64,000 nucleotides of DNA from an uncultured Pelagibacteraceae bacterium (GTDB lineage Bacteria; Pseudomonadota; Alphaproteobacteria; Pelagibacterales; Pelagibacteraceae), in assembly GCA_902594395.1 (NCBI GenBank), contig CACJLZ010000002.1:17197-81196 (forward strand), read 5' to 3'. Under the pieces are notes generated by a model, which saw only the letters and a list, made by a program, of their open reading frames with translations, did no database searches and was not told where the DNA came from. A program made the position numbers and the translations under genes. Positions 57,610-60,787 of this stretch are shown here, one piece after another; the first letter of the stretch is position 1; every line of letters begins with the position of its first letter.

Positions 57610-57932
57610 CTTACATAGTAAACGATAAATGCATCAAATGTAAATTGATGGACTGTGTTGAGGTGTGTCCGGTTGATTGTTTTTATGAAGGAAAAAATAT
57701 GCTTGTAATTAAACCGGATGAGTGTATAGATTGTGGCGTTTGTGAGCCGGAATGTCCAGTAGATGCAATTAAAGCTGATACAGAGCCTGGTAGCGAAAAA
57801 TGGTTAGAAATCAATCGTCAATATTCTGAAATCTGGCCCAATATAAGTGAAAAAAAAGATCCACCTGCGGATCATGAAAAATATAAAGATGAGCAAAATA
57901 AGTTTGAAAAGTATTTTAAAGAAAACCTTTAA
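57606..57932 (+). CDS. fdxA: 7Fe-type ferredoxin
   Basis: [54 protein letters not shown]. Confidence 0.95.
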
Positions 57933-58749
57933 AAAAAAATCAAAAACAAAAAAAATTAAAAAAATAATTAAAGCAAGAAAATCAAAAATAAAGAAAACTA
58001 AAGAAAATAAAAAAAATTTAAAAGTAATTTCAAAATCTTCAAAAAAACTAATTAAAAAAAATGAAAAAAAAATTGAGACAAAAACAGAAAATTTAAGAAT
58101 TCCAAAAAATAATGAATTAAAACCTGAAATTAAGAAAGTTAAAAAGCAAAGTACAGAAAAGAGAGAATACAAAATAAAAGACTACGTTGTATATCCAAAA
58201 CATGGAGTAGGACAAATTACTGAATTCAAAAAAATCAATATTGGCGGAATAGATGTCGAAACATACATTATAAAATTTGAAAAAGATAAAGCAAATGGAA
58301 TGGTACCAGTAAATAAACAATCTCATTTACGTCCATTATCTACAATTAATCAAGTTAATAAAAGTATATCCATTCTAAAAAGCAAACCTAAAATTAAAAG
58401 ATCGATGTGGAGTAGAAGAGCTCAAGAATATGAAGCAAAAATTTCGTCTGGGAAAATCTATGAACTTGCTGAAGTTGTAAGGGATTTAAATAAGGGAGAT
58501 GATATAATGATTGATCAATCTTATAGTGAAAGACAACTTTTTGAAAAAGCTTATGAAAGAATTATCTCAGAGTTTCAAATAGTGTTGGATTTATCAAAAG
58601 ATGATACACAAAAAAAATTAGACAAAGCTTTAAAAAGAAATTCTAATAAAGAAATTAAAGAGGAAAATAAAACTCCAAAAACTTCAAACAATAACGATTT
58701 ACCTGTTGAAGAACCAATTTCAGATGATGAGGATCGAATTGAAGAATAA
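57889..58749 (+). CDS. CarD-family transcriptional regulator with long Lys-rich N-terminal extension
   Basis: CarD core [48 protein letters not shown] preceded by ~90 Lys-rich residues; start at [12 protein letters not shown] is the best candidate, overlapping fdxA. Confidence 0.88.
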
Positions 58750-58791
58750 AAAAAACGCCTCTCACACAAAAAGTTATGAGAAGCGTTTTTT
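58750..58791. terminator. Bidirectional terminator between carD and the polybasic peptide gene
   Basis: AAAAACGCCTCTCA...TGAGAAGCGTTTTTT inverted repeat with A/T flanks. Confidence 0.8.
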
Positions 58792-58809: not shown

Positions 58810-58887
58810 TTATCTTCTTCTTCTTTTCTTAGCTTTTTTCTTAGCTTTTTTCTTAGCCTTCTTTGCTTTTTTTCTTCTCTTAGGCAT
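58810..58887 (-). CDS. 25-aa polybasic peptide MPKRRKKAKKAKKKAKKKAKKRRRR (not in ORF track)
   Basis: ATG preceded by SD-like GGGAG, two tandem stop codons, convergent terminator downstream, dyad upstream. Confidence 0.7.
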   Translation of the reverse strand: MPKRRKKAKKAKKKAKKKAKKRRRR

Positions 58888-58905
58888 CTTTAGCTCCCTT
58901 TTTTA

Positions 58906-58936
58906 GTTAAACGAATCAAAATGATTCGTAATTAAC
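58906..58936. promoter_or_regulatory. Dyad element upstream of the polybasic peptide gene
   Basis: GTTAA-ACGAATCA-AAA-TGATTCGT-AA-TTAAC, 19 nt upstream of the ATG. Confidence 0.5.
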
Positions 58937-59086
58937 TTATTTTTATTTTTTTATATACGTTATGTCAATTCTTTAATTAAAGTTTTAATTTTCAAAAATA
59001 AAAATTAAAAATAAAAAAAATTTTTATAATCTAATGTGTAAAAAAGTTAATGTTTATGCGCTTTATAATCAATTATTTTTATTTAA

Positions 59087-60787
59087 TTAATAAAGTTTTT
59101 CTAAATCATCTTTATATTTTTTCAAAATTTTTTTTCTTTTTAGTTTTAATGTTGGCGTTAACATTCCATTTTCAATTGTAAATTCTTCTTTAATTAATTT
59201 AAATTTTTTAACTTTTTCAACTGAAGATAAAGTTTTATTTAAGTTTTCTAAATAAATTTCAATATTTTTTCTATTTTCTTCACTTTCAGATACAATTAAA
59301 GCAACTAAATAAGTTTTTTTATCTCCGTAAACAAAACTTTGTTTAATTTTTTCATTTAAACATAATAAATTTTCAATTTTAGATGGTGAAATGTTATCTC
59401 CTCCAAGACTAACTATTATTTCTTTTTTTCTATCAGTAATTTTTAAATTTCCATCCTGTGTAATCACCCCAATATCACCAGTATGCAACCAGCCATTCTT
59501 TATGACATCAGCTGTCTCTTTTTCCATGTTCCAATAACCAAGCATTACATTTTCACCTTTGACTAAAATTTCACCATCCTCAGCTATATCTACTTGGTTT
59601 GTTTTAAAAGGAGGACCAACTGTCTCGATTTTGATTTTTCCTGGAATATTACAACTTACCACAGGTGAGGCTTCGGTAAGACCGTAGCCTTGAAGGGTGG
59701 GCAATCCTATAGCATTTAAAAATTCTCCAATTTTTTGGTCCAAAGCGCCACCCCCAGATACAAAGGCTTTCAGTTTTCCACCAAATTGATTTTTAATCTT
59801 TTTTCTTACCAGTTTTTCGCAAAGAAAATTAATTAATTTTTCTTTCAATGTTAAATTCTCACTATTCAGTTTTTTTGTTCCGATTGAGATAGTGGATGAT
59901 ATTAGTTTTTTCTTAAAACCTTTTTGCTTTGAAAAATTCATTGAAATTTTACTGTACAAATTTTGATAAAATCTTGGCACTGCTGTCATAATAGTAGGTT
60001 TTGCAATAGACATGTTGGATAATAACTTCTCTAGACTTTCAGCATAATAAATTTTTGCACCAAGCGAGATTTGAACAAATTGAACTGCATGCTCATATGA
60101 ATGAGACAAAGGTAACCATGTTAAAAAAGTAGGTTCACTATTTTGAACTAATTGATTTAATATTTCTTGAGCTCCTTCACAATTTGATAGAATTCCTCCA
60201 TGACTGAGCATTACTCCTTTAGGATTGCCAGTTGTTCCAGATGTATAAATTATACAAGCAAGGTCTTTCCTTTCAAGGTTTTGATTAAAAATTAAATCAG
60301 TACCTGATTTCTTTTTTTTAGAATATTCATTAAATATATTTTCTATATTCTCGACTCTTTCATTTATGTTTTCAATAGATAAAATTTTTATTTCATCCGA
60401 GATAAATTTTTTTATTTTGTTTAATTGGGTTTCATTGGAGACGATACAAATTTTTGGGTTACAATCATTAATGATATATTCATAATCTTTTTCTGAATAA
60501 GTTGTAAATAAAGGTACCGTAACCCCACCTGCATTCATAATTGATATGTCAGAGATAAGCCACTCAGGTCGATTTTCAGATAATAGGATGCATCGGTCTC
60601 CGTCAGCTAAATTTGCTTTTAAGTATTCAGATAAAATTTGGATTTTTGTAGAAACTTGCTCCCAAGTCAAAAAATCTTTTTTGTTTTCTTTTAACCATTT
60701 TAAAAATGGCTTATCAGTAACTGAGTTTATTTCTTTATACTTTGTAAAAAAAAGTTCTACTAAACTATTTATTCTACTTAATTGCAT
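59087..60787 (-). CDS. Long-chain acyl-CoA synthetase (AMP-binding)
   Basis: IIYTSGTTGNPKGVMLSHGGI, GYGLTEASPVVS, GWLHTGDIGVITQDGNLKITDRKKEIIV. Confidence 0.93.
   Translation of the reverse strand: MQLSRINSLVELFFTKYKEINSVTDKPFLKWLKENKKDFLTWEQVSTKIQILSEYLKANLADGDRCILLSENRPEWLISDISIMNAGGVTVPLFTTYSEKDYEYIINDCNPKICIVSNETQLNKIKKFISDEIKILSIENINERVENIENIFNEYSKKKKSGTDLIFNQNLERKDLACIIYTSGTTGNPKGVMLSHGGILSNCEGAQEILNQLVQNSEPTFLTWLPLSHSYEHAVQFVQISLGAKIYYAESLEKLLSNMSIAKPTIMTAVPRFYQNLYSKISMNFSKQKGFKKKLISSTISIGTKKLNSENLTLKEKLINFLCEKLVRKKIKNQFGGKLKAFVSGGGALDQKIGEFLNAIGLPTLQGYGLTEASPVVSCNIPGKIKIETVGPPFKTNQVDIAEDGEILVKGENVMLGYWNMEKETADVIKNGWLHTGDIGVITQDGNLKITDRKKEIIVSLGGDNISPSKIENLLCLNEKIKQSFVYGDKKTYLVALIVSESEENRKNIEIYLENLNKTLSSVEKVKKFKLIKEEFTIENGMLTPTLKLKRKKILKKYKDDLEKLY

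Follow-up and report, generated by a model that had tools for sequence, protein, structure and literature searches.

A polybasic micro-gene of Pelagibacterales whose translation start is probably controlled by the rhtB RNA in the genus Pelagibacter

The stretch of 64,000 nucleotides analysed here (the window) carries an open reading frame of 25 codons plus stop (58887..58810, minus strand, followed by the tandem stops TAATAA) that encodes the polybasic peptide MPKRRKKAKKAKKKAKKKAKKRRRR. The locus raises the question of whether so short and repetitive a frame is a gene and, if so, what holds its sequence in place. A preliminary description had reported a 25-residue Lys/Arg/Ala frame with a Shine–Dalgarno (SD) sequence, tandem stops, its own terminator, an upstream dyad and a 12-bp repeat, and all of these features were confirmed at their positions.

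The SD, GGGAG, lies at 58898–58894, 6 nt 5' of the ATG, and forms with the spacer the leader GGGAGCTAAAG (58888..58898, minus strand); in the predicted fold of the mRNA, most of the start region is unpaired. Further upstream on the same strand is the 5'-leader hairpin ACGAATCA-UUU-UGAUUCGU (58911..58929), whose dyad pattern, ACGAATCA-aaa-TGATTCGT, is unique within the window, with 0.07 occurrences expected. A promoter −35 box, TTGACA, is located at 58963..58968 (minus strand), the −10 box probably lies in the AT-rich stretch at about 58939–58946, and the transcript would start just 5' of the leader hairpin. The 12-bp tandem repeat encodes KKAK units (58824..58857, 2.8 copies, 100% match). An intrinsic terminator hairpin of 17 pairs (58750..58791) is situated between the convergent 3' ends of the micro-gene and a carD homologue (57925..58749, plus strand; PF21095 CarD_C, 6.6e-20; PF02559, 2.7e-13), which served as synteny anchor; two terminators were found in this region, compared with 0.5 expected. 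The upstream co-directional gene (59087..60787, minus strand) encodes a 566-aa AMP-binding protein that is long-chain acyl-CoA synthetase-like by sequence motifs alone. At its N-terminus, the CarD homologue carries a long Lys-rich extension (57925–58170), and thus two adjoining genes both encode polybasic tracts; a Lys/Ala-rich stretch on this side is also present at a carD locus of another order (L386).

The carD-downstream regions of relatives were searched for the peptide. Within the genus, a convergent polybasic ORF follows carD in 28 of 30 loci, the remaining two of which end at contig edges, and a polybasic ORF of 21–99 aa lies shortly after carD in all 26 loci from ten other Pelagibacterales genera of both families. 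These ORFs measure 21–58 aa in the other genera of the same family and 40–99 aa in the second family, where the orthologues read MEELKVIFAKARKKAKKKAAPKKK... (KKAAPKKKRKAAKRKPAKKK; KAAPKK repeats). A TTGACA(-like) box and a 5' CGAATCA hairpin precede the gene in both families (TTGACA/TTGAC is kept in the aligned leaders), so orthology stands on more than a low-complexity peptide. The CGAATCA element and its hairpin occur throughout the order, also in genera that lack the small RNA described below (e.g., loci L072 and L081). The hairpin arms in the genus usually contain GAATC/GATTC (GANTC) sites, and an mRNA stabiliser, an operator and a methylation site are candidate roles for the element. Frame, SD, promoter, 5' hairpin, terminator and carD-convergent position are therefore conserved order-wide, which upholds the initial view of a deliberate gene; a lack of conservation of frame or SD in relatives had been named as evidence against it, and both are conserved.

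Selection acts at the codon level as well. In the genus, 105 different coding sequences specify 55 peptides of 20–35 aa built exclusively from K, R, A, M, T, P and S, and the length variation between strains that had been predicted from the repeat is real between species. Synonymous changes make up 57% of codon differences (808/1415), compared with 18–26% expected from random point changes, and K↔R exchanges account for 73% of replacements. Start, frame and composition are conserved, and the codons are under purifying selection. Exact copies of the leader and first codons were found in records of Pelagibacteraceae, Pelagibacterales or Candidatus Pelagibacter, with the sole exception of a 514-bp contig labelled Mycoplasmatales, which is probably a binning error. 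An origin outside the order was considered and rejected, since the neighbouring gene is missing from all 29 carD loci of other alphaproteobacterial orders; one of these loci has no more than a Lys/Ala-rich ORF that extends into the CarD side. Viral spread was likewise rejected, as the locus was found in no phage record and the loop of the small RNA matched no IMG/VR contig. On sequence evidence, the micro-gene is monocistronic and conserved across Pelagibacterales, and we regard it as near certain that it is real. A literature search returned nothing on the peptide.

The strongest conservation at this locus, absent from the preliminary description, is that of the leader. Among 43 carD-anchored loci of the genus, the 11 nt before the ATG read GGGAGCTAAAG in 37, GGGAGCTAAAA (the AAAA form) in four and carry other single changes in two; positions −48 to −18 share only about 40% identity between species of the genus. 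For the 6 nt before the ATG, identity is 0.96 in the genus versus 0.56 in genera without a match to Rfam family RF01814 over the cut-off, and the spacer differs almost every time in other genera of the family. Judged by these alignments, the genus leader is conserved beyond ribosome-binding needs.

The nearly frozen leader is explained by another locus, since it is complementary to the loop of the rhtB small RNA. The rhtB RNA motif (RF01814) was described as a conserved hairpin near rhtB, of unknown role and without a proposed target (Meyer et al. 2009; PMC2704228). The copy in the genome from which the window comes lies outside the window (G000, contig C1, 64015–64097) and scores 78.3 bits with the covariance model, against a gathering score of 55 (E 7.1e-15). 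At most one mismatch from GGGAGCTAAAGATG, this genome has two sites only, the micro-gene leader and, on the opposite strand, the RF01814 loop. The RF01814 RNA contains 5'-UUAGCCAUCUUUAGCUCCC-3', which is the reverse complement of the mRNA from the SD through the spacer and AUG to codon 2; the predicted pairing site on the mRNA is GGGAGCUAAAGAUG-c-CUAAG (58879..58898, minus strand). Despite one mismatch, the duplex of the window's own pair reaches −35.4 kcal/mol, and none of the 12,790 window stretches on both strands scores better; the next stretch is at −24.5, and the next best ORF start among the 103 in the window at −23.1. This ranking covers the 64-kb window and was complemented by pattern searches in genomes. 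The mismatch is internal to the duplex (codon 2 CCU versus AGCC in the sRNA) and recurs in other MPK-type species. One-sided mRNA changes consist of an end mismatch in genome G168 and a G:U wobble in G199. In a further genome (G160; loci L360 and L048), a degenerate sRNA loop, AACCAUCUUUAGCUCUCGG, accompanies an unusual peptide, MAAKRKAAKKSKKKAKKRSR, possibly a decaying or re-tuned pair.

RF01814 exceeds the cut-off in 89 of 99 genomes of the genus, one copy each; the 41 genomes searched from other genera gave no match above it. Weak hits in other genera were, where read, chance-like matches or the peptide gene itself. Since the varying loop length misplaced the stem arms in automatic alignment, we paired the arms directly. 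All nine stem pairs are intact in each of 88 fetched hairpins, which share the bulged-hairpin form, and double compensatory changes occur at three stem positions (T-A to C-G, C-G to T-A and T-A to A-T). The loop differs at one main position. An extended −10-like element, TGNTANNNT, lies upstream of 81 of the 88 hairpins, and a clear U run follows the stem in only 29. Each of the 31 loci read has its upstream neighbour on the opposite strand. A co-directional gene follows the hairpin in 26 of the 31; several of those read are RhtB/LysE-like, and otherwise it is a different gene at a greater distance. In the window's genome, the gene after the hairpin is on the opposite strand. The constant orientation of the upstream neighbour, the variable downstream neighbour and the −10-like element make the sRNA look like its own transcription unit; given the co-directional gene in 26 of 31 loci, the hairpin could also act in cis.

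In many species (L121–L150), the RhtB/LysE-like gene starts directly 3' of the hairpin with no evident SD, and the sRNA may also serve this exporter as an attenuated leader. On the promoter side of the sRNA, the loci read (L033, L121–L150) have the same small ORF, MKKKGHRPITRVKNPEPNIEDPDWVIWAAWADRITFEEIE..., on the opposite strand; a conserved AATGCA element marks a divergent promoter region that the two possibly share.

If the two RNAs pair, a change on one side should be matched on the other, and this is what we find at the one varying position, −1 of the mRNA, where A in the mRNA corresponds to U in the sRNA and canonical pairs have G:C. The initial case was a set of three AAAA-leader genomes, all with the matching U in the sRNA loop. 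The A form, GGGAGCTAAAAATGGC, is present in 16 of 399 genomes of the genus and occurs at both loci in 13; the other three genomes are incomplete, and a search that allowed one mismatch recovered no form of one partner in them, canonical or otherwise. Taken together, 13 A:U and 35 G:C genome pairs show no discordant case, although part of the G:C set was picked because both sites matched the canonical form, and the A-form scan is therefore the unbiased figure. On a tree of CarD and the acyl-CoA synthetase-like protein, 48 genomes agree and none disagrees. The trait changed five times on this tree (three changes are forced by well-supported branches), and both partners changed each time. Only one core base co-varies, and with 3/3 or 5/5 independent pairs a sign test does not reach formal significance.

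Genera without RF01814 over the cut-off provide a natural control: they have drifted spacers and no clear second complementary site. A search of other genera with the pattern GGRAGN{3,7}ATGGCNAA returned mainly the peptide genes themselves or scattered single hits. We also considered other targets of the sRNA and rejected them, as the extra one-mismatch sites in the genomes inspected fall within ORFs of other genes and not at their starts. With complementarity, duplex energy and co-variation in agreement, pairing between sRNA and mRNA is very likely.

Our model is as follows. The sRNA would start at its 9-bp stem, at GATAGTCC of the rhtB element, and would expose the loop UUAGCCAUCUUUAGCUCCCGG, which would pair with the mRNA from SD and spacer through the AUG to the second codon. 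Such pairing would block 30S loading and thereby occlude the translation start. Pairing over SD and AUG predicts inhibited translation initiation by known mechanisms, from which repression is the probable outcome. Transcription of both loci and pairing in the cell are likewise presumed. We thus consider it likely that the locus is an H1-like, nucleic-acid-binding micro-gene whose translation is controlled by a trans-encoded rhtB sRNA in the genus Pelagibacter.

The properties of the peptide suggest what would be controlled. The 55 peptides of the genus are composed of K 53%, R 20% and A 18%, have no D/E and carry a net charge of +12 to +24. A K/A/P-rich repeat composition without acidic residues, as in Hc1/Hc2-type H1-like proteins, is present, and the sister family consists of KAAPKK repeats. 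The likeness to histone H1 or AlgP tails suggested earlier is thus borne out by the composition and by the longer second-family orthologues (KKAAPKKKRKAAKRKPAKKK, 40–99 aa); family models gave it no backing, with no Pfam, NCBIfam or PDB match for the peptide and no Pfam or NCBIfam hit for the longer orthologues, in searches limited by the low complexity of the peptide. Binding to nucleoid, ribosome or RNA therefore stays a matter of inference. The peptide is very basic, probably disordered and histone-H1-tail-like; most likely it coats or condenses nucleic acid, and the chances that it binds the nucleoid are about even.

A rather unlikely alternative places the peptide among small ribosomal or rRNA-binding proteins, with the same sRNA control. 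Small basic ribosomal proteins of 24–33 aa are known, and in size and charge the peptide resembles bS22, bL37 and bTHX; its strong SD would also fit. Unlike these proteins, however, it is repeat-like, with indels between close species (20–35 aa in the genus, 40–99 aa in the KAAPKK sister family) that would not be expected of a fixed rRNA-pocket protein, and neither a family model nor a solved chain of bS22, bL37 or bTHX matched it. A more distant option, which we consider improbable, reverses the roles: the polybasic mRNA would act as sponge or anti-terminator on the rhtB hairpin, which in many species lies directly 5' of a gene for a LysE-type exporter, and the K/R-rich ORF would report the supply of Lys and Arg. 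The co-directional, in several cases RhtB/LysE-like, gene after the hairpin, an attenuator-like U run in about a third of hairpins and the original placement of the motif by rhtB (PMC2704228) all fit such a scheme. However, sRNA and loop are kept where rhtB is not adjacent, both in the window's genome, with its opposite-strand gene, and in several species with other neighbours. Moreover, genera without the sRNA still carry the polybasic gene and its promoter, so the peptide serves a function independent of this RNA.

The same distribution makes it very unlikely that the two loci form a trans-encoded type I toxin–antitoxin pair, in which the peptide would be toxic when translated and the sRNA would be the antitoxin. 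A tiny ORF and an sRNA complementary to its start in a near-perfect duplex do recall such systems, but the peptide is syntenic and order-wide and the sRNA is confined to one genus, so other genera would keep a toxin without its antitoxin. The loci are also far apart, and type I toxins are mostly hydrophobic, whereas this peptide is polybasic. Least credible of all is a match by coincidence, or an inert inverted copy of the gene start, with the leader conserved for ribosome binding only. The SD and ATG on the opposite strand of the hairpin would allow an origin from the start of the micro-gene, yet other genera manage with varied spacers, the co-varying base lies outside the SD, and no A/G change that would break pairing was seen without a change in the partner. 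The opposite-strand ORFs (MAK*, MAR*, MAI*, MA*) are not conserved, and the extra one-mismatch sites noted above lie away from gene starts.

Control of the micro-gene by the rhtB sRNA, the reading we favour, has a parallel in Chlamydia. There, the AUG of the hctA mRNA, which encodes an H1-like protein that condenses DNA, is occluded by loop 1 of the IhtA RNA (PMC4355289). IhtA has 107 nt and three stem-loops, and its 7-nt interaction at −1 and around the start codon avoids the SD; repression has been shown by experiment, and the loop is conserved across species (PMC4355289, PMC3469542). In both systems, a trans sRNA has a conserved hairpin loop complementary to the start-codon region of a message whose product is small, basic, Lys-rich and H1-like. 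The likeness is one of logic only, as there is no sequence relation: the rhtB sRNA is a single hairpin of roughly 50 nt that would form about 20–26 pairs over SD, spacer, AUG and codon 2, and repression, experimental for IhtA–hctA, is predicted for the rhtB sRNA and the micro-gene. HctA, in addition, is much longer than the 25-aa peptide. With HctA/HctB and the C-terminus of AlgP the peptide shares K/A/P/R repeats (KKAAPKKK, AKKKAKK) and length polymorphism; unlike them it has only 20–35 aa and no Pfam match, and its H1 likeness comes from sequence alone. To our knowledge, Chlamydia offers the one known case of an sRNA that blocks the start of a basic, histone-like protein, and the Pelagibacter pair looks like an unrelated, differently built variant of this logic with an apparently dedicated target. 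More tentatively, and with some doubt, we propose an sRNA-gated "micro-histone" of 20–35 residues, essentially the single target of its sRNA, that arose in one genus independently of IhtA–HctA and froze the mRNA start.

The partner locus is a member of RF01814, and this orphan Rfam family from 2009, for any target of which our literature search found nothing (the Pelagibacter expression literature searched has no mention of rhtB), gains a specific target backed by co-variation. A previously undescribed micro-gene is added to the SAR11 core gene set, and a second, unrelated case of a histone-like protein under start-codon sRNA control comes into view. The pair points to dedicated on/off control of a histone-like peptide in the very abundant marine SAR11 cells. 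If true, chromosome packing would be under RNA control in bacteria that are the most abundant in the sea and have few transcription regulators.
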